DNA from: Armatimonadota bacterium
GTDB lineage: Bacteria; Sysuimicrobiota; Sysuimicrobiia; Sysuimicrobiales; Sysuimicrobiaceae
Assembly (NCBI GenBank): GCA_031432545.1
Contig: JAVKGX010000006.1
Span: 28,569 to 92,568 of the forward strand
DNA length: 64,000 nucleotides
Direction: 5' to 3'
Shown here piece after piece: positions 3,773 to 24,468 of this stretch. Numbering within the stretch: the first letter of the stretch is position 1; every line of letters begins with the position of its first letter. The position numbers and the translations under genes were made by a program. The notes under the pieces are model-generated. The model ran no database searches. It saw only the letters and a program-made list of their open reading frames with translations, and had not been told where the DNA came from.

Positions 3773-4477
3773 TCACACGCTAAGGTACCGCCGCCAGACG
3801 TCTGGGGCCGCGCGCAGCTCTTCTGAAGAGCCCTGCCAGACGACGCGGCCGCGCTCGAGCACGAAGTGGTGGTGGGCCAAGTCGAGCAGGCGGTGGACGT
3901 ACTTGTCAATGAGCAGGATCGCCTGGCCGCCTTCGTTCAGGCGGCGCAGGCAGCGCCAGATCTCCTCGCGCAGCATCGGAGCCAGCCCCTCGGTGGCCTC
4001 GTCGAGGATCAACAGATGTGGGTTCGTCATCAGGGCCCTGCCGATCGCGAGCATCTGCTGCTCGCCGCCCGACAGCTGGTCGCCGTAGCGGTTCAGCCGC
4101 TGGCCCAGACGAGGGAACAGGTCCACGACCCGGTCCAGCGTCCACGGGTGGGCGCTGCCGTTGCGGTTGGCGGCGAACGCGACGAGGTTCTCCCGCACGG
4201 TCAGGTTGGGGAAGACCTGGCGTCCCTCCGGCACGAGGGCAACCCCCAGGGCTGCGATCCGCTCCGGCGGCCAGCCCGCGATCGCGCGGCCGCGGAACTC
4301 CACCCGACCGGCGCGCGGGGGCACCAGACCGGTGATCGAGCGGACGGTGGTCGTCTTGCCCATGCCGTTGCGGCCCAGCAGCGTCACGACCTTCCCGTCC
4401 TCGACGGCGAGGTCGACGCCGAAAAGCACCTGGCTGTTCCCGTAAAACGTCTGCAGGCCTTCCACGCTTAGCAGCAT
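3773..4477 (-). CDS. livF: Branched-chain/aromatic amino acid ABC transporter ATPase LivF
   Basis: Cytoplasmic ATPase of a Liv-type importer, 234 residues, normal length. Walker A is GRNGMGKTTT (about residue 37), the signature is LSGGEQQ and Walker B is LLILDEATEGLAP. The NGMGKTT and EGLAP variants are typical of LivF rather than LivG. Its ATG shares one base with the livG stop (TGATG at 4479-4475), indicating translational coupling. It is the last gene of a long leftward operon that begins at the MarR gene at 12925, which ties the transporter to aromatic-acid catabolism rather than to branched-chain amino acids alone. Confidence 0.95.
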   Translation of the reverse strand: MLLSVEGLQTFYGNSQVLFGVDLAVEDGKVVTLLGRNGMGKTTTVRSITGLVPPRAGRVEFRGRAIAGWPPERIAALGVALVPEGRQVFPNLTVRENLVAFAANRNGSAHPWTLDRVVDLFPRLGQRLNRYGDQLSGGEQQMLAIGRALMTNPHLLILDEATEGLAPMLREEIWRCLRRLNEGGQAILLIDKYVHRLLDLAHHHFVLERGRVVWQGSSEELRAAPDVWRRYLSV

Positions 4478-5220
4478 CAAACCGCCTCCCCCAGGTACGC
4501 GCGGTGCACCTCGGGGTTGGCGCGGACCTCGTCGGGCCGACCGGAAGCCAGGACCCGGCCGTCCACCAGCACCGAGATCCGGTCCGCCGCGCCGAAGACG
4601 ACATCCATGTCGTGTTCGACGAGCAGGATCGTGACCTGCTTTTTCAGGTCTCGGATCAACTCCAGCATGCGCCGCGACTCCTCCAGACTCATGCCGGAGG
4701 TCGGCTCGTCCAGCAGCAGCAGCTTGGGACGGCAGGCCAGCGCCAGGGCCACCTCGACCTGGCGCTGCTCCCCGTGGGACAGCGCCTGCACCGGCACGTG
4801 CAGGCGGTCTGCGAGGCCGACCTGCCGTGCGAACGCGGCTGCCTCGTCTTCGAGGTCCCGCTCGCGGTACACGGGGTGCCAGAAGCCAAACGAGCTCCCC
4901 GTCCGCGCCTGGACCGCGAGGGCGAGGTTGTCCACGACGGTGTAGCCCCAGAACAGGTTGGTGACCTGGAACGTGCGGGCGATCCCCAGCAGCGTGCGCC
5001 GGTGCGCGGGCAGGCGGGTGACGTCGTCGCCGGCGAACGCGATCCTGCCCTCCGTCGGCGGCACGACACCCGCGACCAGGTTGATGAACGTCGTCTTGCC
5101 GGCGCCGTTGGGACCGATGAGCGCGTGGACCTCGCCGGGTGCGACGTCCAGGTCGCACCGCCACAGGGCAACCACCCCACCGAAGCGCTTGCTGAGACCG
5201 CGGACTTCCAGCAGGCTCAC
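4477..5220 (-). CDS. livG: Branched-chain/aromatic amino acid ABC transporter ATPase LivG
   Basis: Second ATPase of the Liv importer, 247 residues from GTG 5220. Walker A is GPNGAGKTTF, the signature region is LSHGEQRQVEVALAL and Walker B is LLLLDEPTSGMS, all LivG-like. The GTG overlaps the livM stop (GTGA, 5220-5217). Pairs with LivF under the LivH/LivM membrane channel. The signature SHGEQ rather than SGGQ is usual for LivG. Confidence 0.95.
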   Translation of the reverse strand: MSLLEVRGLSKRFGGVVALWRCDLDVAPGEVHALIGPNGAGKTTFINLVAGVVPPTEGRIAFAGDDVTRLPAHRRTLLGIARTFQVTNLFWGYTVVDNLALAVQARTGSSFGFWHPVYRERDLEDEAAAFARQVGLADRLHVPVQALSHGEQRQVEVALALACRPKLLLLDEPTSGMSLEESRRMLELIRDLKKQVTILLVEHDMDVVFGAADRISVLVDGRVLASGRPDEVRANPEVHRAYLGEAV

Positions 5221-6206
5221 CGGGGCCGCCCTTCCAGGATGCCCGCGATCCCACGCGGCGCGAGCAATACGACCGCGAGCAGTACTGCACCCACCCCCAG
5301 TTGCCAGTGGATCGTGACGCTGTGGAACACCTCCTCCAGCGCCACCATCGCCGCGGCTCCCAACACGCCGCCCCAGAACCTGCCCACCCCTCCGAGGATC
5401 ACCATCAGCATGAGGTGGCCGGACTGCGGCCAGCTCAGCATGTACGGAGACGCATACTGCGTGTAGTGGACCATCAGCACGCCCGCCAGCCCGGTGATCG
5501 CGCCCGAGACCGCGAAGGCGACCAGCTGGTACGGATAGGCGGAAAAGCCGATCGCCGTCGCCCGGGACTCGTTGTCCCGGATCGCCTGCAGCGCCCGCCC
5601 GAAACGGGCGTGCACGATCCTCCACAGCAACCACAGGCAGACCACCAAGACGGCCAAAACCAAGTAGTAGACCTCCACGTCGCCCAGCGGGAGCCCGAAG
5701 TCCGTCCGCGGCGCGCGCAGCCCGTCCTCGCCGCCGTACTGTTTGAAAGAGATCACGCCGTAGTAGAACATCTGCGCGAACGCGAGCGTGATCATGATGA
5801 AGTACAGACCTCGCGTGCGCAGACAGATCGCAGCGACCGCCGTCGCCACCGCTGCCGCCACGAGCACCGCGGTCGGCCATACCACCCACGCCGACGTCGT
5901 GCCTTCGCGAGCGAGGACGGCCACGGTGTACGCCCCCAGACCGAAGTAGGTCGCATGCCCGAAGCTCACCAGGCCGCCGAAGCCCAGGACGAGATTCAGG
6001 CCGCTGGCGGCCAAGGCGAACACCATCGCCTTCGTGACCAGGCCCATGTAGAACTCCAGGCCCCAGGCGACGGCCGCCGGCGGAAACAGCGCGACCAGGG
6101 CCGCGGGCAAGACGCCCAGCGCCGCCTTGGGCCACGCCGACCCCGGCGCCCGCGCGGCGACATCGGGGCTGGCCGTCACCGATCGGGTGTGCTCGTCCGC
6201 GGCCAC
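5217..6206 (-). CDS. livM: Branched-chain/aromatic amino acid ABC transporter permease LivM
   Basis: Inner-membrane channel subunit, 329 residues with about nine or ten hydrophobic segments. Motifs GLNLVLGFGGLVSFGHATYFGLGAY and RAIRDNES are hallmarks of LivM (first shortened here to its SFGHAxYFGLGAY core). GTG 6206 is chosen because GGAG lies six bases upstream and reading further upstream gives an arginine/serine-rich shadow of livH. It begins 13 bases after the livH stop and its own stop overlaps livG. Confidence 0.93.
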   Translation of the reverse strand: MAADEHTRSVTASPDVAARAPGSAWPKAALGVLPAALVALFPPAAVAWGLEFYMGLVTKAMVFALAASGLNLVLGFGGLVSFGHATYFGLGAYTVAVLAREGTTSAWVVWPTAVLVAAAVATAVAAICLRTRGLYFIMITLAFAQMFYYGVISFKQYGGEDGLRAPRTDFGLPLGDVEVYYLVLAVLVVCLWLLWRIVHARFGRALQAIRDNESRATAIGFSAYPYQLVAFAVSGAITGLAGVLMVHYTQYASPYMLSWPQSGHLMLMVILGGVGRFWGGVLGAAAMVALEEVFHSVTIHWQLGVGAVLLAVVLLAPRGIAGILEGRPR

Positions 6207-6219
6207 CGCCCACTCCGAG

Positions 6220-7149
6220 CTAGATCCGCACCGGGAACAACCCCTGCGGTCGGAAGAACAGCACGATCGCCATGAGGAGGTAGATGAGGATCGACGCCAG
6301 CGCCGGGCCGAGGTTCGACGCCACTTCGGGCGACGCCAGCCGCACCAGCAGCATCGGGAGGAACGCCCGGCCGGCCGTGTCCACCGTGCCCACGACGATC
6401 GCACCCAGCAGCGCGCCCTTGATCGATCCGATGCCCCCGATGACGACGACGACGAACGCCAGGATCAGGATGCTCTCGCCCATGCCGACCTGAACCGCGA
6501 GGATCGGTCCCAAAAGAGCGCCGGCCACCGCGCACAGGGCGGCGCCCGCGGCGAACACCACGGTGAAGACCTGCCGGATCGGCACCCCCATCGCCTGCGC
6601 CATCGCGCGGTTCGATGCGCCGGCCCGCACCCACATCCCGATGCGCGTCCGGTGGATCAGCAAGAACAACGCGACGGCCAGCCCCAGGCCCGCACCGATG
6701 ATCGTCAGGCGGTAGGCGGAGTATCCCAAGTCCGGCAACACCCGCACCGGCTGGGCCAGCTCCGAGGGGACCGACAGCAGCAGGGCGTGCGGACCCCAGA
6801 CGATCCGCACGCCCTCGTTGAAGATCAAGATCAGAGCGAACGTCGCCAGCACCTGCGTGAGGTGGTCGCGGGCGTACAGCCGTCGCAGCACCGAGACCTC
6901 CAGCAGCGTCCCGACGACCGCGGTGGCCGCGACCGCCAGCGCCGCGCCGACCCAGAAGGATCCGGTGACGCCGATGAAGGTGGCCGCCAGGTACGCCCCG
7001 ATCATGTACAGCGAGCCGTGCGCTAGGTTCACGACATCCATGATGCCCAGGACCAGCGTGAGACCGGCGGCGAGCAGGAACAGCATCAGGCCGAACTGCA
7101 GCCCGTTGAGCAGCTGCTCCACGACCAACGACAGTGGGATGTCCGACAT
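6220..7149 (-). CDS. livH: Branched-chain/aromatic amino acid ABC transporter permease LivH
   Basis: Inner-membrane channel subunit, 309 residues, about eight membrane segments. The DVVNLAHGSLYMIGAY motif near residue 38 and GGIGSIKGALLGAIVVG near the C-terminus are diagnostic of LivH. The gene follows livK by 60 bases, enough for a ribosome binding site but with no evident terminator. Partner of LivM in the substrate channel. Confidence 0.95.
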   Translation of the reverse strand: MSDIPLSLVVEQLLNGLQFGLMLFLLAAGLTLVLGIMDVVNLAHGSLYMIGAYLAATFIGVTGSFWVGAALAVAATAVVGTLLEVSVLRRLYARDHLTQVLATFALILIFNEGVRIVWGPHALLLSVPSELAQPVRVLPDLGYSAYRLTIIGAGLGLAVALFLLIHRTRIGMWVRAGASNRAMAQAMGVPIRQVFTVVFAAGAALCAVAGALLGPILAVQVGMGESILILAFVVVVIGGIGSIKGALLGAIVVGTVDTAGRAFLPMLLVRLASPEVASNLGPALASILIYLLMAIVLFFRPQGLFPVRI

Positions 7150-7209
7150 GGTCGCCTCGCGCGGGAACAGACACCGCTCCGCGGCGTCCTCCGACCGGAC
7201 GGGCGCCTC

Positions 7210-8382
7210 CTACAGGCGACAGCGGCCGACGTAGGCGTCGCCGTGGTTGCGGAAGATCGTGCCGCGCAACCGATTGACGATCTCGCCGTTGGTCTGCTCT
7301 TCGACCTGCCGCAGGTAGTAGTCCTGGATCGGATACCCGTTGCGGTTGAACCGGACGCGTCCGCGGGTGGTGTCGAAGCCCGCCAGGATCGCGCGCCGAA
7401 TGTCCGCCCTGCGGCCCAGGTCGCCCCCGACGGCCCGCAGAGCGTGGTCGAGGGCAAGCGCCGCGTCGTATCCCTGTGCCGCATAGAGCGCCGGCACCCG
7501 GTTGTAGGTGCGACGGAAGTCTTCGACGAACCGGCGGTTGATGGGGTTGAAGATCTCCAACGCCCAGTGCGAGCTGTTGAACACCCCCACCATCGGCCGC
7601 CCCACCGCGCGGATGATGTCGGCGTCGGCCGAAAATCCGGGCAGCAGCAGCGGGATCTCCCGCATCAGCCCAGCCTCCGCGTACTGCTTATTGAAGTTCA
7701 CCCCCATCGCACCCGGGTAGAAGGCGTACACGGCCCTGGGGCGGGCGGCACGGATCTGTGCGATCTCCGCCGAGTAGTCCAGCTGGCCCAGCCGCGTGTA
7801 CACCTCGCTCACCACGCGCCCCTTGTAAAAGCGCTTGAATCCGTTGAGCGCGTCGCGCCCGGCCGGGTAGTTCGGCGCGAGGATGAAGGCGGTCTCGTAC
7901 CCGCGCAGCTGCGCGTGGTGTCCCATGGCCTCGTGCAGGTTGTCGTTCTGCCAGGCGACGTTGACGAAGAATGGGTTGCACTGCTCGCCGGCGTACTCCG
8001 ACGGCCCTGCGTTGGGGCTGATGTAGAAGGTCTGGTTCGCGAACACCATCTCCCCGACCGCCAGCAGCACATTCGAGAAGATGATCCCGGTGACGAAGTC
8101 GACGCGGTCGCGCCGCAGCATGCGGTCCACCGCGGTGCGCGCGACCTCGGGGTTCTGCTCGTCGTCAGCGACCACGACCTCCACGCCCAGCCCGCCGAGC
8201 CGGTTGCCGAGGTGCCGCAGCGCGAGGTTGAAGCCGTCGCGCACGTCGATCCCCAGCGCCGCGCCGCCTCCGGACAGGGTGCTCACGAACCCGATCTTGA
8301 CGGCGCGCGGCTGCGCGCCGACGGGCAGCGCCGCCACCACCAGCAACGCAACGACGAGGTAAGCGATCCTGCAGCCGATCAT
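7210..8382 (-). CDS. livK: ABC transporter substrate-binding protein, LivK/Peripla_BP_6 family
   Basis: Secreted binding protein, 390 residues. The start at 8382 begins a signal peptide (MIGCRIAYLVVALLVVAALPVGAQ), and its ATG overlaps the RidA stop (ATGA). The mature protein has the type I periplasmic-binding layout: VKIGFVSTLSGGGAALG at the start, VDFVTGIIFSNV and PRAVYAFYPGAMGVNFNKQY. Peripla_BP_6 proteins bind branched-chain or aromatic amino acids, benzoates and amides. Its place directly behind a 2-aminobenzoate-type ligase and RidA suggests an aromatic substrate (anthranilate, kynurenine or tryptophan). That specificity is inference; Leu/Ile/Val remain possible. Confidence 0.92.
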   Translation of the reverse strand: MIGCRIAYLVVALLVVAALPVGAQPRAVKIGFVSTLSGGGAALGIDVRDGFNLALRHLGNRLGGLGVEVVVADDEQNPEVARTAVDRMLRRDRVDFVTGIIFSNVLLAVGEMVFANQTFYISPNAGPSEYAGEQCNPFFVNVAWQNDNLHEAMGHHAQLRGYETAFILAPNYPAGRDALNGFKRFYKGRVVSEVYTRLGQLDYSAEIAQIRAARPRAVYAFYPGAMGVNFNKQYAEAGLMREIPLLLPGFSADADIIRAVGRPMVGVFNSSHWALEIFNPINRRFVEDFRRTYNRVPALYAAQGYDAALALDHALRAVGGDLGRRADIRRAILAGFDTTRGRVRFNRNGYPIQDYYLRQVEEQTNGEIVNRLRGTIFRNHGDAYVGRCRL

Positions 8383-8813
8383 CGTTGTGTCCCCCCTTCC
8401 GGTGTGGGAATGACTGCCGTAGCCTCGATCTCCACCTTTGCGCGCGGTTCGACCAGAGCGGAGACCTCCACGACCGACATCGCCGGGTAGTGGCGGCCGA
8501 TGACCTCGCGGTAGACGGCACCCAGCGCCGGCAGGCTGCGCAGGTACTCCTCCCGATTGGTGATGTACCACGTGAGGCGCACCAAGTGGTCCGCTCGCGC
8601 GCCCGCGGCCGCCAGCAGCTCGACGACGTTGCGCAGCGCGCGGTCGACCTGCCCGACGAAGTCATCGGTCTCGAACTGGCCCTCGCGGTTCCAACCGAGC
8701 ATGCCGGCCAAGAAGACCAGACGACCGGAGGCCACAATCCCGTGGGCGTACCCCTGCGGCCGGGGCCACCCCGGCGGCTGGACGATCGCCCAAGCGTCGC
8801 CGGGCACCGTCAC
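8379..8813 (-). CDS. RidA/YjgF/YER057c/UK114 family protein
   Basis: Small trimeric enamine/imine deaminase family, 144 residues. Typical features are YAHGIVASGRLVFLAGMLG near the start and the C-terminal segment MSVVEVSALVEPRAKVEIEATAV, where the Arg (here in PRAK) contacts the carboxylate in RidA. Start and stop overlap both neighbours (ATGA each side), embedding it between the CoA ligase and livK. RidA-like proteins recur in clusters for aerobic 2-aminobenzoyl-CoA breakdown. A reasonable role is hydrolysis of the enamine/imine formed once the ring is reduced, releasing ammonia. That role is inferred. Confidence 0.9.
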   Translation of the reverse strand: MTVPGDAWAIVQPPGWPRPQGYAHGIVASGRLVFLAGMLGWNREGQFETDDFVGQVDRALRNVVELLAAAGARADHLVRLTWYITNREEYLRSLPALGAVYREVIGRHYPAMSVVEVSALVEPRAKVEIEATAVIPTPEGGTQR

Positions 8814-10431
8814 GGCCGCACCTCCCCGGCCTCGCGCTCACGCAGCACGTGACGCTGCAGCTTGCCCGTCAGCGTGCGCGGGAGTTCGGAGCAGAACTCG
8901 ATCGCCCGCGGGTACTTGTACGGGGCGATCCGCCGCTTGACAAACCCCTGCAGTTCCTGGCGGAGGTCTTCCGATGGTTCGAAGTCCGCACGCAGGACGA
9001 CGTAGGCCTTCACGACCTGCCCGCGTTCGGGGTCTGGGACCCCGGCGACGCCGCACTCGGCCACCGCCGGGTGCTCCAGCAGCGTGTCCTCCACTTCCGG
9101 CGGTGCGATGTTGTAGCCGGCGGAGATGATCAGGTCGTCGGTGCGCGCCTGGAAGTGAAAGTACCCGTCCTCGTCGAGCAAGCATGCGTCGCCGGTCACG
9201 TTCCAGCCGTGCTGCACGTACTGCCGCTGCCGCGCATCCGCCAGGTACCGGCATCCGGTGGGTCCGCGCACCGCGAGGCGACCGACCCGCCCCGGCGGCA
9301 ACACGTCGCCCCGTTCGTCGAGCAGACAGGCCTGGTAGCCAGGCACGGCCCTGCCGATGGCTCCGGGGCGGGCTTCTTCTTCTCGGTGGGAGACGAAGAT
9401 GTGCAGCATCTCGGTCGAACCGATGCCGTCGATGATCTCGACGCCGCTGACTTCCTTCCATTGGTTGCGGGTCGACGCCGGCAGCGGCTCGCCAGCCGAG
9501 ACGCACTTGTACAGATGTCGCGGGCGGTGTTGGCGCCACAGGGCCGCCAGCGCGCGATAGGCGGTTGGCGAGGTGAACAGCACGCGGACGCCGAACTCCG
9601 CCACTGCCGCGAGCAGCAGATCGGGAGAGGCGCGCTCCAGCAGCAGCGACGACGCGCCGATCCGCATCGGAAAGGCGACGAGACCGCCCAGCCCGTAGGT
9701 GAACGCCAGCGGCGGGCTGCCGGCAAACAGATCGTCCGGATCGGCCCGCAGCACGTGGGCGGCGAAGGTGTCGCAGATCGCCAGCACGTCCCGGTGGAAG
9801 TGCACGCACCCCTTGGGCTCGCCGGTGGTCCCCGAGGTGAAGGCGACGAGCGCCGGGTCGTCCGAGGATGTGTTCACCGGGTCGAAGTCTGCCGGATGCG
9901 TCGCGGCCAGCCGCTCCAGCTCGCCGCCCTCCCCCCAGTAGGCGATGCGGCGCAGCACCGGGGCGGCGGCGCGGGCATCCTCGAGCTCTGCCGACAGACG
10001 CGCGTCCGCCAGGGCGTGCGAGATGCGGGCTTTCTCGATGATCGGTACGAGTTCGCGGGCACGCAGCAGCGGCATCGTCGCCACCACCACGCCCCCGGCA
10101 CGGAGCACCGCGAACCAAGCCGCAACCAGCATCGGGGTGTTGGCCGAGCGCAGCAGCACGCGGTTGCCCGGCACCAGGCCCATGTCGCGAACCAGCACGT
10201 GCGCGATGCGATTGGAATGCTCCAGCAGCTGCCCGTAGGTCCACACGACGCCCGGCGCGCGGATGCAGGGCCTTTCGGGATGCCGGCGCGCCCCGCGGTC
10301 GAGCAGTTCGACCGTGCAGTTCAACCGATCGGGGTAGCGCAGCTCCGGGAGGTCGAAGACCAGCGGAGGCCACGCGTCGGGCGGTGGGAGGTTGTCCCGC
10401 ACGAATGTGTCCGCGTGCGCCGTCGCGGCCA

Positions 10432-10432
<1 letters not shown>
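8810..10432 (-). CDS. 2-aminobenzoate-CoA ligase-type AMP-dependent synthetase
   Basis: Acyl-adenylate-forming ligase of the benzoate-CoA ligase family, 540 residues. P-loop FTSGTTGEPKG (about residue 205), the family motif GIGSTEMLHIFVS (about 345), the hinge region and a C-terminal catalytic Lys in PRTLTGKLQR are all intact. ATG 10432 is chosen over the adjoining GTG because AGGAGGG lies six bases before it; it shares a base with the upstream stop (TGATG). Neighbouring genes (RidA, acyl-CoA dehydrogenase, crotonase, kynureninase island) point to anthranilate as substrate. Benzoate or a hydroxybenzoate cannot be excluded. Confidence 0.9.
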
Positions 10433-11595
<1,163 letters not shown>

Positions 11596-11618
11596 CGACA
11601 AAAGCCTCAAGGGGCGCG

Positions 11619-12437
11619 TCAGTCCCCGCGGAAGGTCGGCGCCTGCCGGTGGACGAACGCCTCGTAGCCGCGCCGGAAGTCCTGAGTGCTCATGCACAGG
11701 GCCTGCGCCTGGGCTTCGGCCTCGATCGCCTCGTCCAGCCCCATCGACCACTCCTGGTACAGCATCCGCTTGGTCATCGCGTGGGCAAACGTCGGACCGC
11801 CGGCGATCTCGCGCGCCAGACGCCGCACCGACGGCAACAGGTCGTCGGGCTCGCACAGCCGGTTGAAGAAGCCCCAGCGCGCGGCCTCCTCGCCGTCCAT
11901 CGTGCGTCCCGTGTACAGCAGCTCGGCGGCCCGGCCCTGCCCTACGATCCGGGGCAGCAGCGCGCACGCACCCATGTCGCACCCGGCCAAACCGACACGG
12001 TTGAACAGAAAAGCGATGCGGCTGCGCGCCGTCCCCAAGCGCAGGTCGGCGGCCATCGCCAGCGCCGCTCCCGCTCCGGCGCAGACCCCGTCCACCGCTG
12101 CGACGATCACCTGGGGACAGGTCAGCATCGCACAAACGACCGCGCCGGTCATGCGCGTGAAGCGCAAAAGGTCCGGCGCCCCCATGCGCACCAGAGGTCC
12201 GATGATCTCGTGCACGTCGCCGCCGGAGCAGAAGTCCTCGCCGGCTCCGCACACAACCACGGCCCGCACGTCGTCGGCGCGGCCGAGCATCTGGAACAGG
12301 TCGCGCAGCTCCCCGTACGTCTCGAAGGTCAGCGCGTTCTTGCGGGCCGGCCGGTTCAGCGTCACCGTCCCGACACCCTCGTCCACCTCCCACAGGAAGT
12401 GTTGGGCGCGGTAGTCGGCGAGTGGCACTCCCTTCAA
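11619..12437 (-). CDS. Enoyl-CoA hydratase/isomerase (crotonase) family protein
   Basis: Crotonase-fold protein, 272 residues from TTG 12437, which overlaps the MarR stop (TTGA); GGGAGG lies eight bases before it. The oxyanion-hole loop FCSGGD and the second glycine ([14 protein letters not shown]) are present. Both classical enoyl-CoA hydratase glutamates are missing: the CEL position reads AAL, and the second is replaced around FLFNRVGL. An Asp in GLAGCDMGA aligns with the catalytic Asp of dienoyl-CoA isomerases. It may therefore be an isomerase, ring-hydrolase or atypical hydratase acting on the alicyclic CoA intermediates. Confidence 0.9.
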
Positions 12438-12925
12438 TGTGCCGCCTCCCTCTTCCGCACGCTCTGCTTGAGCCGCCCCAGCAGCGCGTGCAGCGTCTCG
12501 ATGTCCTCCCCTGACAGGTCGGAGAAGAGTTCAACGATCCACGCCTCGTGCGTCCGCGCCATGCGTGCGAACGCCCTCCGGCCGGCCGGCGTCAGGTGCA
12601 CGAGGACGGAGCGCCGGTCCTGGGGGTCGGCGCGGCGTCGGATCCAGCCCTCCGCCTCGAGGCGGTCGACGAGGGCCGTCACGTTCCCGGTGGTGACCAT
12701 CATGCGCCGCGACAGCTCGCCCATGCGCAGCCCGCGGGGGTTGCGCTCCAGCTGCGCCAACAGGTCGAAGCGCGGCAGCGTGGTCCCGAACCGGCGGCGC
12801 AGCCGGCGGCGGATCTCGGCGGTGATGAGGTTGGTGCACGTGAGCAGGCGCAGCCACAGCCGGACCGCCCGGTGGTCGTCCGTGTGGAGGCGGCTTTCCA
12901 GGTCGGATGCTTCGGAGACCGCCAC
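12434..12925 (-). CDS. MarR family transcriptional regulator
   Basis: Winged-helix repressor, 163 residues from GTG 12925. The DNA-binding part reads [31 protein letters not shown], with the wing [16 protein letters not shown] following. First gene of a leftward operon of ten genes ending at livF, and divergent from the SDR-ligase-LLM-monooxygenase run. A 27-base imperfect palindrome lies between the two. MarR proteins in such clusters usually sense an aromatic acid or its CoA ester; the effector here is unknown. Confidence 0.93.
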
Positions 12926-13805: not shown

Positions 13806-13815
13806 GGAGCGCGAC

Positions 13816-15372: not shown

Positions 15373-15448
15373 TCGAAGCATTCGCAAACCGGCCGTGCTG
15401 GCGCGCAGAAGACGCCAAGGCCGGGGACCTAGCCATCGGAGGGGAGGG

Positions 15449-16297
15449 GTGAGCATCCGAATCGGCATCGGGCTCCCCAGCGGCGTCCCGGAGGTGAGGG
15501 GCGAGGTGATCATGCGCTGGGCGCTTCGCGCCGAGCAGGGGCCCTTCGCGAGCCTCGGCGTGATCGACCGTCTGGCCTACGACAGCTACGATCCGCTGAT
15601 CGCGCTGGCCGCGGCGGCCGGTGCGACGCAGCGTCTGAAGCTGGTCACCGCGATCCTCGTCGGACCGCTGCGCAACACTGCCCTGCTGGCGAAGGCGATT
15701 GCCTCGCTCGATCAACTGTCGGGCGGGCGGCTGGTCGTCGGGTTGGCGGTGGGCGCCCGGGAGGAGGACTACGACGCCGCCGGTGTCGACCACCGCGGAC
15801 GGGGCGCGCGGCTTTCCGAGCAGCTGCGCCGGCTGCGGCAGATCTGGGAAGAGGGCAGGATCGGTCCTCCGCCCGCCCGAGCCGGGGGGCCGCCGTTCCT
15901 CGTGGGTGGGTTCAGCGACGAGGCCTTCGCGCGGGCCGCCCGCTACGCCGACGGCTACTTCCACGGCGGCGGCCCACCCCGCGCGTTCGCGCGCGCCGCC
16001 CAGGCCGCCCGCGCCGCATGGGTCGACGCCGGCCGGCCGGGACGCCCGCAGCTGTGGGGGCAGGGCTACTTCGCCCTCGGCGACGACGCCATCGAGCAGG
16101 CCGTCCGCTACATGCGGGACTACTACGCGTTCACCGGCCCGTTCGTCGAGAAGATCGTCGAGCAGTTGCTGACCACGCCGCAGAGGATTGTCCAGTTCGT
16201 GGAAGGCTACGCCGAGGCGGGGTGCGACGAACTCGTCCTCTTGCCGGCTGTGGGAGACCTCGACCAGATCGACCGGCTCGCAGAGGCGCTGCCTTGA
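15449..16297 (+). CDS. LLM class (luciferase-like) flavin-dependent oxidoreductase
   Basis: TIM-barrel flavin oxidoreductase of the bacterial luciferase-like superfamily, 282 residues from GTG 15449, chosen because GGAGG sits six bases upstream. Recognisable segments are IRIGIGLPSG, RLKLVTAILVGPLRN, LAKAIASLDQLSGGRLVVGLAVG and PPFLVGGFSDEAFARAARYADGYFHGG. Members use reduced FMN or coenzyme F420; which is used here is not clear. It follows the ligase by 76 bases and its stop overlaps the TTG start of the fused monooxygenase (TTGA), so the two are made together. An LLM protein is not a standard member of 2-aminobenzoyl-CoA clusters. Confidence 0.88.
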   Translation: MSIRIGIGLPSGVPEVRGEVIMRWALRAEQGPFASLGVIDRLAYDSYDPLIALAAAAGATQRLKLVTAILVGPLRNTALLAKAIASLDQLSGGRLVVGLAVGAREEDYDAAGVDHRGRGARLSEQLRRLRQIWEEGRIGPPPARAGGPPFLVGGFSDEAFARAARYADGYFHGGGPPRAFARAAQAARAAWVDAGRPGRPQLWGQGYFALGDDAIEQAVRYMRDYYAFTGPFVEKIVEQLLTTPQRIVQFVEGYAEAGCDELVLLPAVGDLDQIDRLAEALP

Positions 16298-18408
16298 GGG
16301 TCGCCATCGTTGGCGGCGGACCCGCCGGCCTGTACCTCGCCCTGCTGCTGAAGAAGGCCGACCGCAGCCGCGAGATCACAGTCTTCGAGCGTAACCCGCC
16401 CGATGCGACCTACGGGTGGGGCGTGGTGTTCAGCGATCGCACGCTCGCCGAGTTCCGGGAGGCCGACTACCGGACCTATCGGGAGATCACCGACCGGTTC
16501 GTCCTGTGGGACGCGATCGACGTCTGGGTCCACGGCGAGCGGGTGCGTTGCGGCGGGCACGTCTTCGCGGGCATCGCACGCACGGCGCTGCTGGGCATCC
16601 TGCAGCGCCGCTGCGCGGACCTCGGCGTGCGGCTCGTCTTCCGCGCCGAGGTCACCCAACCATCCGACCTGCCGCCGCATGACGTGCTCGTGGGCGCCGA
16701 CGGTGTCCACAGCATCGTGCGCTCGTGGTACGAGGACGCCTTCCGGCCGACGATCGCGTACGGGCGCGCCCGGTACGTGTGGCTCGGGACGCGCCGCACG
16801 CTGGGGGCGTTCACGTTCGCGTTCCGCCCGACCGAGTGGGGGCTGTTCCAGGCCCACGCCTATCCGTACGACGGCCGCACGAGCACGTTCATCGTCGAGT
16901 GCGCCGAGACGACGTGGCGTCGGGCAGGCCTGCAGGAAGCCGACGAAGAGCAGACGCTGCGCCGATGCGAGGCCATCTTCGGGGACGTGCTGCGCGGGGA
17001 GCCACTGCTGTCGAACAACTCGCGGTGGATCCGCTTCCCCACCCTTCGTGCGCACGCCTGGCACTTTGGCAACGTGGTCTTGCTGGGCGATGCTGCCCAC
17101 ACCGCGCACTTCTCGATCGGTTCCGGTACCAAACTCGCGATGGAGGACGCGATCGTGCTCGCCAACGCCTTCGAGGCGCACCGGGACGTCGAGGCGGCGC
17201 TGCGCACCTACGAGGGCGAACGCCGGCCGATCGTCGAAGCGTTCCAGCGCGCCGCCGCGCAGAGCCAGCGGGCGTTCGAGACCACGGACCGCACGATCCG
17301 GCTGGACCCGATGCGGTTCGCGTTCCACCTGCTCACCCGAAGCGGCCGCATCTCTTACGACGATCTGCGGCTACGCGACCCGGCGTTCGTCGACCGCGTC
17401 GACGGGCACCTCGCGCGCGAACGGGACCGGCTGCGCCTGCCGCCCCCGCCCGCCCACCTCCCCTTCACCGTGTGCGGGCTGCGCCTGGACAACCGCGTCG
17501 TCCTGCGACCGGCGGCCGCGTGCGGCGCGACCGACGGCGTGCCAGCCAGTTCGCACCGGGATGCGCTGGCCCGACTCGCCTCGAGGGGGGCGGGGCTGGT
17601 GCTGACCGAGATCGTCGCGGTCCTGCCCGAAGGGCGCATCACGCCCGAAGACGCCGGGCTGTACCGACCGGAGCACGCGGCGGGTTGGGCAGCCATAGTC
17701 GGGGCGGTGCACGCGGAGGGGGCGAGGGTGGGCGCGGTCCTCGGACACGCCGGGCGCCGGGGCGCCACGCGGCCGCGCCGCTTCGGTGTGGACGTCCCCC
17801 TCCGCCAACCCTGGACCCTGCTGGCGCCCAGCCCCGTCCCGTACCTGCCCGAAAGCCCCGTCCCCAAGGAGATGACCGAAGCGGACATGGACGCGGTGCG
17901 GGCGGCCTACGTGCGGGCTGCCCGGATGGCGCGCGAGGCCGGCTTCGACCTGCTGCACCTGCACTTCGGATGCGGCTACCTGCTGGCGAGTTTCCTGTCT
18001 CCCCTGACGAACCGGCGCACCGACGCCTACGGCGGGACGCTCGAGAACCGTCTGCGGTTTCCGCTCGAGGTGTTCGCCGCGGTGCGCGGGGAGTGGTCGG
18101 GGCCCGTGGGGGTGGCCCTGCCCGCGTCGGACCGAGCGCGCCGCGGCATCGGCGAGGCCGACGCGCTGGCGATCGCCCAGGCGTTCAGGGACGCCGGATG
18201 CGATCTGGTCGAGGTCACCGCCGGCCAGACGGTCTCCGACGACGACCCGACCTATGGGCCGGGCTTTTTGGTGCCCTTCGCCGACGCGGTACGCAACGGG
18301 GTCGGTGTCGCGGTGCTCGTCGCGGGCGGCCTGGCCTCGATCGGCGACGTCAACACGCTGGTGGCCTCCGGCCGCGCCGATCTGTGCGTCCTGGAGCCGT
18401 GGGACTAG
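16294..18408 (+). CDS. Fused aromatic-CoA monooxygenase/reductase (2-aminobenzoyl-CoA or salicyloyl-CoA 5-hydroxylase type), reductase half divergent and short
   Basis: Two-domain flavoprotein, 704 residues. Residues 1-380: FAD monooxygenase, with VAIVGGGPAGLYLALLL at the N-terminus and LGDAAHTAHFSIGSGTKLAMEDA near 265. Residues 390-704: Old Yellow Enzyme-like reductase, with GHAGRRGATRP and ASFLSPLTNRRTDAYGGTLENR. Family proteins are usually about 760-780 residues; this one stops at RADLCVLEPWD, about 60 residues early, losing the last barrel helix. Two substrate-site features are altered: the SPM-Y strand near the domain start reads RPAAACGAT, and HxxHGY reads HFGCGY. TTG 16294 overlaps the LLM stop, with AGAGG eight bases upstream. 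The established family reaction hydroxylates and then reduces the ring of 2-aminobenzoyl-CoA. Confidence 0.88.
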   Translation: MRVAIVGGGPAGLYLALLLKKADRSREITVFERNPPDATYGWGVVFSDRTLAEFREADYRTYREITDRFVLWDAIDVWVHGERVRCGGHVFAGIARTALLGILQRRCADLGVRLVFRAEVTQPSDLPPHDVLVGADGVHSIVRSWYEDAFRPTIAYGRARYVWLGTRRTLGAFTFAFRPTEWGLFQAHAYPYDGRTSTFIVECAETTWRRAGLQEADEEQTLRRCEAIFGDVLRGEPLLSNNSRWIRFPTLRAHAWHFGNVVLLGDAAHTAHFSIGSGTKLAMEDAIVLANAFEAHRDVEAALRTYEGERRPIVEAFQRAAAQSQRAFETTDRTIRLDPMRFAFHLLTRSGRISYDDLRLRDPAFVDRVDGHLARERDRLRLPPPPAHLPFTVCGLRLDNRVVLRPAAACGATDGVPASSHRDALARLASRGAGLVLTEIVAVLPEGRITPEDAGLYRPEHAAGWAAIVGAVHAEGARVGAVLGHAGRRGATRPRRFGVDVPLRQPWTLLAPSPVPYLPESPVPKEMTEADMDAVRAAYVRAARMAREAGFDLLHLHFGCGYLLASFLSPLTNRRTDAYGGTLENRLRFPLEVFAAVRGEWSGPVGVALPASDRARRGIGEADALAIAQAFRDAGCDLVEVTAGQTVSDDDPTYGPGFLVPFADAVRNGVGVAVLVAGGLASIGDVNTLVASGRADLCVLEPWD

Positions 18409-18420: not shown

Positions 18421-19212
18421 CTAGCCGCCGAAGCGGCCGGGCCGGTCCCGGCCGCCGGTCCCCCGCGTGAGCGCGCGGACCGTCTCGACGAGCATCTCGG
18501 CAAGGATCGCGAAGGTGGCTTCCCCTTCTTCGGCGGTCGCGTGTGCCGGCGATCCACAGTAGGCCCGGTCCAGGCCCATCGCCCGGAACTCGCGCACGCC
18601 GCGACCGATCGCCTCGACGAGGCTGACGGGTACGGCCGGCAGCGACCGCATCGTCTGCACGTCGACCAGATCCGGGCGTTCGGCGAGCACCAGCGACGTC
18701 TCGTACTGGCCTCCGTGGCAGGCACCGCTGCGGAACTCTTCGGTCAGTCGGCGCGCTCGGGCGCTGCGGGTCAGGTCGCAGAACCCGACGACGCAACCCG
18801 TGGTGGACTCGACCTCGTCCAGGGCTCGGTGGATCGTCCGTACGTGCTCGGGCTCGAAGTGGTTGTTGACGACGACGACGTACCGGAAGCCCTGCCCCAG
18901 CAGGGATGTGCAGATCCCCACGAGCACGCCGTGCAGCGTCTGCTCGGAAAACCCGACCGCACCGGAAAAGCCCGCCGCGTACCGTGTCACACCGTAGGGG
19001 ACGGGCGGCAACACCAACAGCCGTACGTCGGGATCGTCGGCGAGGCGATCGGCGGCGCGGCGGCACGTCCCCACGGAGATCAGCAGGTCGGTGGACAGCG
19101 GCGCGTGCGGCCCGTGCGGCTCGACCGCGCCGAGCGGGAGGAGCAAGACCGGCGCCCGCCCGCTACGCAGGAGCGCGTCGACGTCCGGCCAGCGCAGGTC
19201 GGCGAACTCCAT
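18421..19212 (-). CDS. Creatininase family amidohydrolase
   Basis: Metal-dependent amidohydrolase of the creatininase family, 263 residues. Ligand positions seen in creatininase are all kept: Glu and His in VEPHGPH, Asp in LSTDLL, His in VNNHFEPEH (normally NGHGGN) and Glu in QYETSLVLA. Start ATG 19212 has no Shine-Dalgarno; a TACAAT box ends six bases upstream, so the mRNA is probably leaderless. Divergent from tryptophan 2,3-dioxygenase across 120 bases and only 12 bases from the end of the monooxygenase. The family includes creatinine hydrolases, MftE peptidase and the archaeal ArfB formamide hydrolase, so a formylkynurenine hydrolase role is possible but unproven. Confidence 0.88.
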   Translation of the reverse strand: MEFADLRWPDVDALLRSGRAPVLLLPLGAVEPHGPHAPLSTDLLISVGTCRRAADRLADDPDVRLLVLPPVPYGVTRYAAGFSGAVGFSEQTLHGVLVGICTSLLGQGFRYVVVVNNHFEPEHVRTIHRALDEVESTTGCVVGFCDLTRSARARRLTEEFRSGACHGGQYETSLVLAERPDLVDVQTMRSLPAVPVSLVEAIGRGVREFRAMGLDRAYCGSPAHATAEEGEATFAILAEMLVETVRALTRGTGGRDRPGRFGG

Positions 19213-19218
19213 GTCCCG

Positions 19219-19224
19219 ATTGTA
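19219..19224 (-). promoter_or_regulatory. -10 box for leaderless creatininase-family gene
   Basis: TACAAT on the minus strand, six bases before ATG 19212, with no ribosome binding site between them. The transcript would start at or next to the start codon. No convincing -35 box is seen. Confidence 0.5.
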
Positions 19225-19277
19225 GTCGAAGGCGGCGCAGGGGTCCGCCAAACCTGGCGATGGCGCGGGGGCGGGGG

Positions 19278-19332: not shown

Positions 19333-20154
19333 ATGCAGGCGCCGGCCAAGCCCCTTACGTACGGCAGGTACATCCGCACCGCAGAGCTGCTGCGTCTGCA
19401 GCAGCGCCTGAGCGACGCGCACGACGAGCTGCAGTTCATCGTCGTCCACCAGGTGTTCGAACTCTGGTTCCGGCTGATGATCTTCGAGCTCGAGAGCGTG
19501 CGGGGCGCGCTGGTGCGCGGCGACCTCCCGACCGCCGCCCGCCTGCTGCGGCGGGCCACGGAGATCGCCCGCGCGCTGCTCGTCGGGTTCGACGTCATCG
19601 AGACGATGCGCCCGTGGGACTTTCTGGAGTTCCGCTCGCAGCTCAAGCCCGCCAGCGGGTTCCAGAGCCGGCAGTTCCGCGAGATCGAGTTCCTGTCGGG
19701 AGCCAAGGACCCGCGCTACCTCGCAAGCTTCGAGCGGGAGCCCGAAGACCTGGCGGCGCTGCGGCGGCGGCTGGGAGAACCGACCGTCTGGGACGCGTTC
19801 ATCGAGTTGCTGCGCGGCCGCGGGCTTCCGACCGACGACGACGCGCAGATCCGTCAGACGCTCATCCGGATCCACAAGGATCCGTCGCTTGCGGATCTGT
19901 ACGAGCTGTCCGAAGCGATGATCGCCTACGACGAGATGTTCGCGCTGTGGCGGCGCCGCCACGTCCTGATGGTCGAGCGCATGATCGGAGCGCGTCCCGG
20001 GACCGGACAGGCCGACGTGCAGAAGACGATCGGCGAGCAGGCCTCCGACGAGCCGGCGTACTTCACCGGGGTCGGATACCTGCACGAGACCCTCTCGAAG
20101 AAGTTCTTCCCGCTGCTGTGGGAAACCAGGACGTTCGTGGAGCGTGACGCATGA
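19333..20154 (+). CDS. kynA: Tryptophan 2,3-dioxygenase
   Basis: Heme enzyme that opens the indole ring of L-tryptophan to N-formylkynurenine, 273 residues. The distal-His motif VVHQVFELWF, the substrate-binding FRSQLKPASGFQSRQFREIE and the proximal heme-His segment RRRHVLMVERMIG are present. Instead of the usual compact GTGGSSGxxYL, the chain reads GTGQ, then about 18 extra residues, then GVGYLHETLSKKFFPLLWE, an insertion beside the active site. ATG 19333 has GGGAGG eight bases upstream. Its stop overlaps kynU (ATGA), a clear kynurenine-pathway operon. Confidence 0.96.
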   Translation: MQAPAKPLTYGRYIRTAELLRLQQRLSDAHDELQFIVVHQVFELWFRLMIFELESVRGALVRGDLPTAARLLRRATEIARALLVGFDVIETMRPWDFLEFRSQLKPASGFQSRQFREIEFLSGAKDPRYLASFEREPEDLAALRRRLGEPTVWDAFIELLRGRGLPTDDDAQIRQTLIRIHKDPSLADLYELSEAMIAYDEMFALWRRRHVLMVERMIGARPGTGQADVQKTIGEQASDEPAYFTGVGYLHETLSKKFFPLLWETRTFVERDA

Positions 20155-21299
20155 CCGATTCCCTGCTGCGCTGGCGGAGCGAGTTCCCCATCCTCGCGCA
20201 CACCACCTATTTGGTGTCGCACTCGATGGGTGCGATGCCGCGTTCGGCGACCGACTGGCTGGCCCGCTACGGCAGGGAGTGGAGCGAGCAGGGCGTGGCG
20301 GCGTGGGAACGGTGGGAGCCCTACGTGCGCGAGCACGCAGACCGGATCGGCACGCTGATCGGTGCGCCTGCGGGCACCGTCGCGCTGCACCAGAACGTCT
20401 CGACCCTGTTCGGCATTTTGCTCAGCGGCCTCGTGCAGCCGGGCGGTCGCACGAAGGTGGTCGCCACCGACCTGAACTTCCCCACCCTGCTCTATGCCCT
20501 GCAGATGCACGAAGACCTGGGGCTGCGCCTCCACCGCATCCCCAGCCCCGACGGCATCACGATTCCCCTGGAAGCCTGGGAGGATGCGGTTGACGACCGG
20601 ACGCTGGCGGTGGTCGTCGACCACGGGATCTTCCGGTCGGGCGCCCTGCAGGACGTGGCAGCAATCACTCAGATCGCGCACCGCCACGGGGCGTGGTCGA
20701 TCGTGGACGCCTATCAGACCGTCGGCTGCGTGCCCGTGGATGTGCGGGCGTGGGGCGCGGACGCCGTACTGGGGGGTTCGCACAAGTGGCTGTGCGGAGG
20801 GCCCGGCGCCGCCTGGCTGTACGTGCAGTCGGACCGGTTGGCCTCCGTGCGGCCCCGGATGGTGGGATGGTTCAGCCACCGCGATCCGTTCGCATTCGAC
20901 CTGCGCATGGAGTTCGCCGCCGACGCCATGCGCTTTGCGACCGGCACGCCCGGGATCCCGGGCCTGTTCGCGGCGCGGGCCGGGCTGGAGATCGTGCTGG
21001 AAGTGGGTGCCGAGGCGATCCGGCAGAAGTCTGTGCGCTTCACCCAACGGATCATCGACCTGGCGGACGAGTACGGACTGCGCGTGAACACACCCCGCGA
21101 GGCATCAGCCAGGGGTGGCCTCGTCGTCGTCGACTTCCCCGGAGCCGAGGCGGCGACCCGGGAACTGGCGCGACGCAACGTCCTCGTCGACCACCGGCCC
21201 AGAGCCGGCATCCGCATCTCCGGACACTTCTACACCGCCGACGAGGAAATCGACCACGCGTTCGACGTGCTGCGGGAGTTCGCACGCCGCTCCGCGTGA
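20151..21299 (+). CDS. kynU: Kynureninase / class V aminotransferase-fold enzyme
   Basis: PLP enzyme that cleaves kynurenine to anthranilate and alanine, 382 residues. It has the kynureninase-like PLP site: VDAYQTVGCVPVDVRAWGAD followed by GGSHKWLCGGPG with the Schiff-base lysine, and FATGTPGIPGLFAARAG near residue 265. Translationally coupled to tryptophan 2,3-dioxygenase, which strongly supports kynureninase over cysteine desulfurase or other class V enzymes. It ends 24 bases from the convergent trpB2 gene. Confidence 0.9.
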   Translation: MTDSLLRWRSEFPILAHTTYLVSHSMGAMPRSATDWLARYGREWSEQGVAAWERWEPYVREHADRIGTLIGAPAGTVALHQNVSTLFGILLSGLVQPGGRTKVVATDLNFPTLLYALQMHEDLGLRLHRIPSPDGITIPLEAWEDAVDDRTLAVVVDHGIFRSGALQDVAAITQIAHRHGAWSIVDAYQTVGCVPVDVRAWGADAVLGGSHKWLCGGPGAAWLYVQSDRLASVRPRMVGWFSHRDPFAFDLRMEFAADAMRFATGTPGIPGLFAARAGLEIVLEVGAEAIRQKSVRFTQRIIDLADEYGLRVNTPREASARGGLVVVDFPGAEAATRELARRNVLVDHRPRAGIRISGHFYTADEEIDHAFDVLREFARRSA

Positions 21300-21323
21300 T
21301 TGCCCCGCCTGCCGGGGAGCACT

Positions 21324-22688
21324 CTATGCGGGCTGGAGCGGAGCCAGCTCAGCCATCGCCCGGCGCACCTCCTCTTCCGGGTACTCGAAGTCCGGCAGCT
21401 TGCCCGCGAGGTACTGCTCGTACGCCGCCAGGTCGAAGTGTCCGTGCCCGCTGAGGTTGAACAGGATCGCCTTCGACTCGCCTGCCTCGCGGCACCGGAT
21501 TGCCTCGTCGACGACGTAGCGGATCGCGTGCGCCGGCTCGGGGCCGGCCACGATGCCTTCGGTCCGCGCGAACAGCATCGCGGCCTCGAAAACCGGGTTC
21601 TGGGGATAGGCGTACGCCTCGATCACGCCTCGGTCGTACAGCATGCACACCAGCGGTGCGTCCCCGTGGTAGCGCAGGCCACCCGCGTGGATGGGCGCGG
21701 GGACGAACGTGTGCCCCAGGGTGTACATCTTGACCAGCGGGGTGGTCTGCGCGGTGTCGCCGAAGTCGTAGAGGTAGGCGCCCTTGGTGAGCGTCGGGCA
21801 AGCCGTCGGTTCGACCGCGACGATGCGGGTCTGTCGGCCCGCCAACTTGTCGGCGACGAACGGAAAGGACAGGCCGGCGAAGTTGCTCCCCCCACCGATG
21901 CAGCCGACCACGACGTCCGGGTAGTCGTCGAAGAGTTCCATCTGCCGCCTGGCCTCCAGCCCGATGACGGTCTGGTGCATCAAGACGTGGTTGAGCACGC
22001 TGCCCAGCGAGTACTTCGCGTCGTCATGGGTGGCCGCGTCCTCGACCGCCTCGCTGATCGCGATCCCCAGGCTACCCGGAGACTGCGGGTCGCGCTCGAG
22101 GATCCCCCGGCCCGCGTGGGTGCGGGGGCTGGGGCTGGGCAGCACCTCCGCGCCCCAGGTCTCCATGAGGATGCGCCGGTAGGGTTTCTGCTCGTAGGAG
22201 ACGCGCACCATGTAGACGGTGCACTCCAGCCCGAACATCCGGCATGCCCACGCCAGCGCCGACCCCCACTGGCCGGCCCCGGTCTCGGTCGTGAGCCGGC
22301 GGGCGCCGCTGGCCTTGGCGTAGTAGGCTTGGGCGACCGCGGTGTTCGGCTTGTGGCTGCCGGGCGGGCTCACACCCTCGTACTTGTAGTAGATGCGGGC
22401 GGGCGTATCCAGCGCCTGCTCCAGCTGCCGCGCCCGGTATAGGGGCGTGGGTCGGTACAGGCCGTAGATGTCGCGCACGGGCTGTGGGATCTCCACCCAA
22501 CGCTCGGAGGACACCTCCTGCAGGATGATATCCATGGGGAACAGCGGCGCCAGGTCGTCGGGGCCCACCGGTTGCTTCGTCCCTGGGTGCAGCACCGGCG
22601 GAGGCGGACTGGGGAGGTCCGGAACGATGTTGTACCACGCGCGCGGAACCTCGCTTTGGGGCAGCACCACCCTCGTCACGTCTGCCAT
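21324..22688 (-). CDS. trpB: TrpB2-type tryptophan synthase beta-like PLP enzyme
   Basis: PLP-dependent beta-replacement enzyme, 454 residues, the longer TrpB2 subclass (TrpB1 is about 400). It has the TrpB2 N-terminal extension ([20 protein letters not shown]), PLP lysine in [26 protein letters not shown], phosphate loop GCIGGGSNF and C-terminal [17 protein letters not shown] lies six bases before ATG 22688. TrpB2 makes tryptophan from serine and indole, often without a TrpA partner. No trpA is visible here. Its convergent position to the tryptophan-degrading operon is notable. Confidence 0.93.
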
Positions 22689-22804
22689 GGCCGGCCTCCT
22701 GGGGGAAATGGGCAGTCCTTCTCCACGCGGCCGATCGAATCCTGGCCCGGTCCGCCGGCCGGACAGCCGGGCCGCAAGCGAGCCAGCCTGCGCCGGGCTG
22801 CGGG

Positions 22805-23227
22805 TCAGCCACCCGCCGAGGAGACCAGGCGGTCGAGGATCCGCAAGAGCTCGTCCTCGTCGCGGTACCGCCACAGCTCGACATGGGGGTTTCCGGCCAC
22901 GAGCGCCGAGACGTCCGCACCGGCCTCGCACAGGCACACGACCCGCTTGCCCAGCATCTGGGCGCGCATGATCTCCATCCCCACGCCGATCGAGGGAACG
23001 GTGACCTCCGCGATCACCACGTCGGCCTGTTCGATCCAGGCCATGTCGCCCTCGTAGATCGCCCGGTCGTTTTTGCGTGTGGCCCGCTCGTGTTCCAGGA
23101 CGTCCGCCCGCCCGACGTGCGCGGTCAGCACCTGGTGGCCGCGCTGCTGCAGCCACGAGACGATCCGCGCGTAGCGCGGCTGCAACCGCCGGCCACCTCG
23201 TATGGCCCCACAGAAGTACACGCGCAT
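22805..23227 (-). CDS. Nucleoside 2-deoxyribosyltransferase-like (DNPH1-type) protein
   Basis: 140 residues, the size of 2'-deoxynucleoside 5'-phosphate N-hydrolase 1 and related proteins. N-terminal [11 protein letters not shown] resembles the family YxAGxIRGGR nucleotide loop; then [30 protein letters not shown] holds the conserved Asp/Glu catalytic region; VCLCEAG follows. It probably hydrolyses or transfers the base of deoxynucleotides in salvage or pool cleaning. It lies between trpB2 and gcdH on the same strand with 47- and 116-base gaps, so linkage to them is loose. Confidence 0.8.
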
Positions 23228-23274
23228 CGCAGCTGGGAATCGACGAGCCGCTGCCGTCGACCTCGATCCGTCGC

Positions 23275-24468
23275 TCAGAAGGCGTCGTGGCCCGTGATCT
23301 CGCGGCCGACGATCAGAGTGTGGATGTCGTATGTCCCCTCGTAGGTGTCGACGGACTCCAGGTTGGCGGCGTGGCGCATGGCGTGGTACTCGACCGTGAT
23401 GCCGTACCCGCCGAGGATCAAGCGGGCCTGTCGCGCCACCTCCAGGGCGGCGCGCACGTTGTGGCGCTTGGCCAGCGAGACCTGCGTGTAGCGCATCCGC
23501 CCGGCATCCTTGAGCTGGCCCAACCGGTGCGCGAGGAGCTGCGAGGCGGTGATGCGGGTGAGCATGTCCACCAGGCGCTCCTGGATGATCTGCGTCGCCG
23601 CGATCGGCCGGCCGAACGCGATCCGTTCCCCGGCGTAGGCCAGCGCCTCCTCGAAGCACGCCACCGCTGCCCCGATCGCGCCCCACGCGATCCCGTACCG
23701 CGCCTGGGTCAGGCACCCCAGGGCCTTGCCCAGGCCAACGCCCTCGGGCAGCGCGTGGTCGTCGGGAACTTCGACGTCTTCCAGCACCAGTTCGGAGGTC
23801 ACCGACGCGCGCATCGAAGCCTTCGTGTGGATTTCGTGGGCCGCAAAGCCCGGGGTGTCGGTCGGCACGATGAACCCGCGGACGGTGTCGGTCTCGTCCT
23901 TGGCCCACACGATGGCCACGTGCGCGATCGACCCGCTGGTGATCCACATCTTGGTGCCCGTGATCGCCCAGCCGCGCGACGTCTTGCGCGCACGCGTGTT
24001 CATCGCGGCGGGGTCGCTGCCGGCGGTCGGCTCGGTCAGGCCGAAGCACCCGATCAGCTCGCCCCGCGCCAGCCGCGGCAGGTAGTGGCGCCTTTGCTCT
24101 TCGCTGCCGTACGCGTAGATCGGGTACATGACGAGCGCACCCTGGACGCTGGCGAAGGACCGGATGCCGCTGTCCCCCCGCTCCAGTTCCTGCATCAGCA
24201 GCCCGTAGGCGATGTTGTCCAAGCCCGCGCACTCGTACTCCGCCGGCAGGTTCGCGCCGTACACCCCCAGCTCGCCGAGCCTGGGCACCAGTTCCATCGG
24301 GAAGATGCCGTCCAGCCACCAGCGCCCGATCCGCGGGATCACCTCGCGGTCGACGAACCGTCGGACGGTGTCGCGCGCCGCCCGCTGCACGTCCGTGAGC
24401 AGATCTTCCGTGACGTAGAAATCCGTCGGACTGACCTTGTTGACCGTGCCGACCTCCTGCACCGTCAC
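23275..24468 (-). CDS. gcdH: Glutaryl-CoA dehydrogenase
   Basis: FAD enzyme that oxidises and decarboxylates glutaryl-CoA to crotonyl-CoA, 397 residues. The match to known glutaryl-CoA dehydrogenases is close: [20 protein letters not shown] (with the Arg that binds the glutaryl carboxylate), [27 protein letters not shown]-like [12 protein letters not shown], and C-terminal [20 protein letters not shown] with the catalytic Glu. GTG 24468 overlaps the TldE stop (GTGA); GTG 24462 with better spacing from AGGAGG is an alternative. Glutaryl-CoA is the common end point of lysine, tryptophan and reductive aromatic-CoA degradation, so it fits the island upstream. Confidence 0.93.

Follow-up and report, generated by a model that had tools for sequence, protein, structure and literature searches.

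A route from tryptophan through anthranilate and aminobenzoyl-CoA has reportedly already been proposed for Cupriavidus. The 2-aminobenzoyl-coenzyme A (CoA) pathway, abm, was described in Azoarcus evansii by Schuhle et al. (2001; summary in PMC4539516), and PMC2842291 mentions the abm genes of C. necator JMP134. In Arthrobacter sp. Rue61a, anthraniloyl-CoA was detected in anthranilate-grown cells and the anthranilate-CoA ligase activity of its ligase was proven in E. coli (PMC3534580). Here we describe a cluster of ~21 kb that encodes tryptophan breakdown via anthranilate and CoA-bound intermediates, located in a 64,000 nucleotide stretch (the window) of contig JAVKGX010000006.1 of an Armatimonadota bacterium (GCA_031432545.1). 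The source genome is 2.19 Mb in 21 contigs, the window has a GC content of ~70% and relatives of the organism carry Armatimonadota or Armatimonadetes labels in public records. The route itself is known; the cluster is an intact, conserved variant form of it with two candidate enzyme replacements, of which the replacement of a reductase domain by a separate LLM-class (luciferase-like) oxidoreductase is better supported than that of the formamidase by a creatininase-family hydrolase.

One gene of the cluster (16294–18408, plus strand; PF01494 and PF00724) encodes a fused FAD monooxygenase and old yellow enzyme (OYE)-type reductase resembling 2-aminobenzoyl-CoA monooxygenase/reductase. Its start is overlapped by the LLM gene (15449–16297, plus strand; PF00296, TIGR03619-like) which, together with the minus-strand creatininase-family gene that separates the fusion from the dioxygenase (18421–19251), was absent from the gene list of the first-pass annotation. 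In the reductase half of the window fusion, H557 was kept but the second histidine of the OYE motif HxxH was replaced by C560 and the flavin-site arginine by A608; we take the motif to correspond to H164/H167 of YqjM and the arginine to R215 in YqjM numbering. An alignment of 60 fusions, 41 with an adjacent LLM gene and 19 without, showed that HxxH was kept in 17 of the 19 fusions without the LLM gene compared to four of the 41 with it, and that all three residues were kept in the same proportion of the former (17/19) and in none of the latter (0/41). The motifs of the FAD half were kept in both groups. The pattern was then checked on fusions that came to light afterwards: 11 of 11 without an adjacent LLM gene read HCAHGYL, with both histidines kept. 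The residues substituted at the reductase site varied by lineage (D, N, Q, C, S, L and Y), which appears to be more nearly independent evidence for the loss of this site.

Of 38 fetched loci with the fusion, 29 had the LLM gene immediately upstream of it, as did every annotated haloarchaeal locus. The coupling extended over three bacterial phyla and the haloarchaea. The window LLM shared 51–80% identity with its counterparts next to the fusion in 30 further loci, haloarchaea included. Mean identity to the window protein over these 30 loci was 59% for the LLM, 57% for the FAD half and 49% for the OYE half, and in every one of the 30 the LLM had a higher identity than the OYE half. In genus g3 of the same family the fusion was of the motif-intact type and only ~48% identical to that of the window, although it lay in the same cluster and its neighbours shared 62–83% identity (LivM lower); this looks like the replacement of one fusion type by the other. 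Taken as the ordinary Azoarcus 2-aminobenzoyl-CoA route, the fusion would do both steps and the LLM and creatininase-family proteins would be bystanders or accessory. The full set of canonical core genes is present, as that explanation expects, and clusters lacking the LLM or creatininase genes exist and are presumably sufficient; the Cys and Ala substitutions in the window fusion, the absence of any LLM-associated fusion with an intact site and the breadth of the coupling all argue against it, and we regard it as unlikely.

Instead, the dearomatising reduction has probably passed from the OYE half to the LLM, a variant reading that we hold to be reasonably probable from the sequence comparisons. 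Some observations count against it. The fusions without an LLM gene formed a single clade (99/100), except for a long-branched second copy in genome G001, and on the fusion tree the presence or absence of the LLM gene switched about once or twice, in essence a single split; the Fisher values for the motif/LLM association (2e-9 and 3e-13) therefore overstate its independence. The OYE half also persists as a domain and may have another role. The second copy in G001 (locus L035, 3382–5313) is a shortened and very divergent fusion gene with no OYE motif and no adjacent LLM gene, ~9 kb from the LLM-associated copy.

The LLM sequence resembles F420-dependent LLM enzymes, and a Natronosalvus fusion cluster contains the F420 genes cofH and npdG. 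Such a reaction has a precedent in the picrate hydride transferases, F420 enzymes of the LLM family whose reaction is the reduction of an aromatic ring. A search of the source genome for CofD returned only a 26-bit fragment and no CofD; CofD was also absent from LLM carriers G001, G002, G047 and G060 and was present in other carriers. F420-dependence of the LLM as a general rule was rejected on these absences, and FMN is the more likely cofactor in the source organism because CofD is missing from its genome. An AlphaFold model of the LLM (pLDDT 90.5) matched both FMN and F420 members in a structure search, with no separation between them.

The second candidate replacement concerns the removal of the formyl group. 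The first-pass annotation placed the whole path within about 20 kb; as worded, this did not hold up: a formamidase, which the path requires, was not listed, and the sole local candidate is the creatininase-family gene (minus strand; PF02633, E 2.7e-51), the true start of which is perhaps an ATG near 19212. The model of its product had a creatininase fold (pLDDT 87.7), with 3a6k and 1j2t as best structure hits. The metal ligands E44, H46, D55, H131 and E133 plus H179 were conserved, the creatinine-gating W154/W174 were not (aligned to C158 and G176), and the protein scored far below the creatininase and MftE cut-offs. Archaeal ArfB, a creatininase-family formamide hydrolase, provides a precedent for this chemistry.

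No match to KynB (TIGR03035) was found in the source genome at E 1e-20. KynB was also missing from most carriers of the creatininase gene, and the dioxygenase was encoded somewhere in the genome in 34 of 37 carriers. Orthologues of the creatininase-family gene were found in eight of 43 genomes of the same phylum, and the dioxygenase in seven of these eight compared to three of the other 35 (Fisher 3e-5, uncorrected for kinship). In Mycobacteriales, 12 of 249 genomes carried the creatininase gene, with the dioxygenase within ~5 kb in 12/12; Mycobacteriales with the dioxygenase mostly had no TIGR03035 match, with or without the creatininase gene. A Deinococcus cyclase, considered as KynB for the formamidase slot, was rejected as it reached only 49 of 223 bits. 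Separately, a PF04199 cyclase-family gene is present in the window 27 kb away (48571–49458, minus strand); the genome has four genes of this family, and E 1e-20 for TIGR03035 was reached by none of them.

Our leading guess, for which we consider the chances to be about even, is that the creatininase-family protein acts as a formamidase on N-formylkynurenine or N-formylanthranilate. Scanning a creatininase alignment against GTDB genomes gave 80 loci (fetched via one cluster gene), mostly from Pseudonocardiaceae and also from Dormibacterota, Chloroflexi, Gemmatimonadota and Symbiobacteriaceae. The dioxygenase was present in 62 of these and the fusion in 38, whereas ligase 2, one of two CoA ligases of the cluster, was ≤4 kb from the creatininase gene in 76, on the same strand in 73. 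Because its tightest neighbour is ligase 2, a serious rival is that the protein serves the CoA branch as a hydrolase and partner of this ligase, its substrate being perhaps an amide, an enamine or a ring intermediate. The same explanation would account for the Dormibacterota, in which the creatininase gene is found with the ligase and fusion and apart from the dioxygenase, and for three genomes (G002, G047 and G067) in which the creatininase gene is accompanied by a KynB-type gene; all these observations weigh against the formamidase assignment. Conversely, none of 154 plasmid records that carry the fusion carries such a creatininase, so the CoA branch in general does not need it; the Azospirillum and Arthrobacter clusters do not have it either, and the evident gap is at the formamidase step, the CoA branch showing none. 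A role in the CoA branch is possible, though we lean away from it. That both replacements hold together, with the LLM standing in for the OYE half as the dearomatising reductase of a CoA-bound aromatic and the creatininase fold as a further unrelated solution to the formamidase reaction, is rather doubtful.

Conserved co-occurrence of the kynurenine genes with the fusion in related genomes, proposed as a check by the first-pass annotation, was searched for and found both in the organism's own family and in the 80-locus set. In genus g3 a single run contained the creatininase gene, ligase 2, short-chain dehydrogenase/reductase (SDR), Liv genes, binding protein, RidA, ligase 1, acyl-CoA dehydrogenase (ACAD), crotonase, MarR, fusion, kynureninase and dioxygenase; in genus g2 the cluster was divided between two places. 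The dioxygenase, fusion, ligase 2 and creatininase genes occurred together in 28 of the 80 loci, mostly in Pseudonocardiaceae, and the fusion was encoded elsewhere in 19 of 21 genomes that lacked it locally. The typical operon of this set was LLM-fusion-creatininase-ligase 2-SDR-crotonase-RidA-ACAD. The dioxygenase-kynureninase pair diverged from it, and between the two lay a PaaX-like regulator, judged by reading of the sequence only. An equivalent set in the haloarchaeon Natronococcus sp. CG52 was LLM-fusion-ACAD-Liv-ligase-alpha/beta hydrolase-kynureninase-indoleamine dioxygenase (IDO). As the same genes are found together in relatives and across phyla, the cluster is more than a chance arrangement. 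The physical union of the two branches had been called unusual; literature searches returned no description of the clustered form, and nothing relevant on kynureninase with aminobenzoyl-CoA or anthranilate-CoA ligase, on creatininase with kynurenine formamidase or anthranilate, or on F420 with aminobenzoyl-CoA. In view of the recurrence of the union in other phyla and a haloarchaeon, the label applies only in part. Locus L064 (G003:C4) encoded two adjacent tryptophan dioxygenase genes (8193–8978 and 10357–11187) with no kynureninase or fusion detectable nearby.

The genes named in the first-pass annotation were all identified in the window by Pfam, NCBIfam and PDB searches. The tryptophan 2,3-dioxygenase (19333–20154, plus strand; PF03301, PDB 2nox E 6e-40) and kynureninase (20151–21299, plus strand; PF22580 and PF00266, PDB 1qz9 E 4e-42) genes overlap by 4 bp. 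Some scores are less favourable to these assignments: the dioxygenase fell below the NCBIfam TIGR03036 cut-off (199.9 vs 390.7) while passing that of Pfam, the kynureninase fell below that of TIGR01814 while having the pyridoxal phosphate (PLP) fold and the kynureninase C-terminal domain, and the fusion fell below that of PRK08255 (857.6 vs 1078 bits).

Upstream of the LLM gene, the plus-strand block (13029–18408) begins with the SDR dehydrogenase (13029–13805; PF13561) and CoA ligase 2 of the benzoate-CoA ligase family (13816–15372; TIGR02262, 487.6 bits, cut-off 375). CoA ligase 1 (8810–10435, minus strand) was of the anthranilate-CoA ligase type; its nearest solved structure was anthranilate-CoA ligase 4wv3 (E 1e-85), and it shared 51% identity over 534 residues with the ligase beside the fusion on pAL1 of Rue61a, a RefSeq gene (L180:10333–11988) that from this position should be ARUE_113p00220. 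Ligase 2 may also act on anthranilate, because it was the sole ligase found in most actinobacterial clusters. The membership of ligase 2 in the benzoate-CoA ligase family, and the NCBI name of the fusion family (salicylyl-CoA 5-hydroxylase/oxidoreductase), could be read to mean that the substrate of the ligases and fusion is a different aromatic acid, such as benzoate or salicylate, with dioxygenase-kynureninase as a separate neighbour. Ligase 1 being closest to anthranilate-CoA ligases, the presence in the cluster of RidA, a family associated with amine removal, and the recurrence of the kynurenine genes with the fusion across phyla make this improbable. The fusion, RidA, crotonase, ACAD and SDR match the content of a canonical aminobenzoyl-CoA-type cluster which, with the 51% identity of ligase 1 to a proven enzyme, supports the route from tryptophan to glutaryl-CoA via anthraniloyl-CoA; taken alone, this plain pathway reading is very likely correct.

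The minus-strand block (3773–12925) encodes, besides ligase 1, a branched-chain-type ABC importer kept beside the cluster in relatives, comprising LivF ATPase (3773–4486; PF00005), LivG ATPase (4477–5226, start approximate; PF00005 and PF12399), LivM permease (5217–6230, start approximate; PF02653), LivH permease (6220–7149; PF02653) and a Liv-type substrate-binding protein (7210–8385, start approximate; PF13458, E 3.5e-67). The nearest solved structure of the binding protein was 4evq which, like 4ey3, presumably binds hydroxylated benzoates; an aromatic-acid importer is a lead here and not a result. The remaining genes of the block are the RidA-family enamine/imine hydrolase (8379–8813; PF01042), ACAD (10432–11622, start approximate; PF00441, PF02770 and PF02771), a crotonase (enoyl-CoA hydratase) of the PRK08258 group (11619–12437; NF006107, 460 bits, cut-off 330) and a MarR regulator (12434–12925; PF12802 and PF01047). 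Glutaryl-CoA dehydrogenase lies close by, as first annotated (23275–24456, minus strand), and its identity is firm on sequence grounds: its closest solved relatives were Thermus 2eba (E 2e-152), 3sf6 and human 1siq (E 1e-118), with NF045552 below cut-off.

Between kynureninase and glutaryl-CoA dehydrogenase are a stand-alone TrpB-like (TrpB2) gene (21324–22688, minus strand), which ends beside kynureninase, and a nucleoside 2-deoxyribosyltransferase-like gene (22805–23260, minus strand). Fusion or kynurenine clusters are also flanked by TrpB or TrpB2 genes in haloarchaea (L177, L178, L186 and L187) and at several loci of Pseudonocardiaceae, among them L091, L097 and L104, and Haladaptatus pallidirubidus has two nucleoside 2-deoxyribosyltransferase-like genes near its fusion cluster (L187:8779–9761). 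Further away, a pair of adenine-deaminase-like amidohydrolases was found in close succession (44624–48491, plus strand).

In the pathway we propose, the dioxygenase would produce N-formylkynurenine, the creatininase-family hydrolase would most likely take off the formyl group, either ahead of kynureninase or following it, and kynureninase would release alanine and anthranilate. Ligase 1 and/or ligase 2 would then form anthraniloyl-CoA, the FAD half of the fusion would hydroxylate C5, and the separate LLM, not the decayed OYE half, would carry out the dearomatising hydride transfer to 2-amino-5-oxocyclohexene-carbonyl-CoA. RidA, SDR, ACAD and crotonase would deaminate and open the ring to give glutaryl-CoA, which glutaryl-CoA dehydrogenase would convert to crotonyl-CoA. 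The Liv system probably takes up an aromatic acid and MarR probably senses a CoA thioester. If correct, this would explain why the reductase half is losing its catalytic site in a family of fused enzymes, assign a function to a conserved LLM subfamily of bacteria and haloarchaea, and offer many actinobacteria a candidate for the formamidase that they lack.

By its published description, the A. evansii abm pathway has in common with the window an anthranilate-CoA ligase, a fused monooxygenase/reductase and beta-oxidation-like enzymes, to which the window adds tryptophan breakdown, a separate LLM, a decayed reductase site and a creatininase-family hydrolase. The pAL1 cluster of Rue61a shares the ligase, the fusion (45% identity) and RidA with the window but, unlike it, has no LLM, creatininase or kynurenine genes. 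As in the KynA-KynB-KynU pathway, tryptophan 2,3-dioxygenase and kynureninase are encoded in one operon, whereas the source genome has no KynB and its candidate formamidase comes from another family. That candidate shares its fold and metal-ligand residues with creatininase and MftE, and differs in having no equivalents of the two gating tryptophans.

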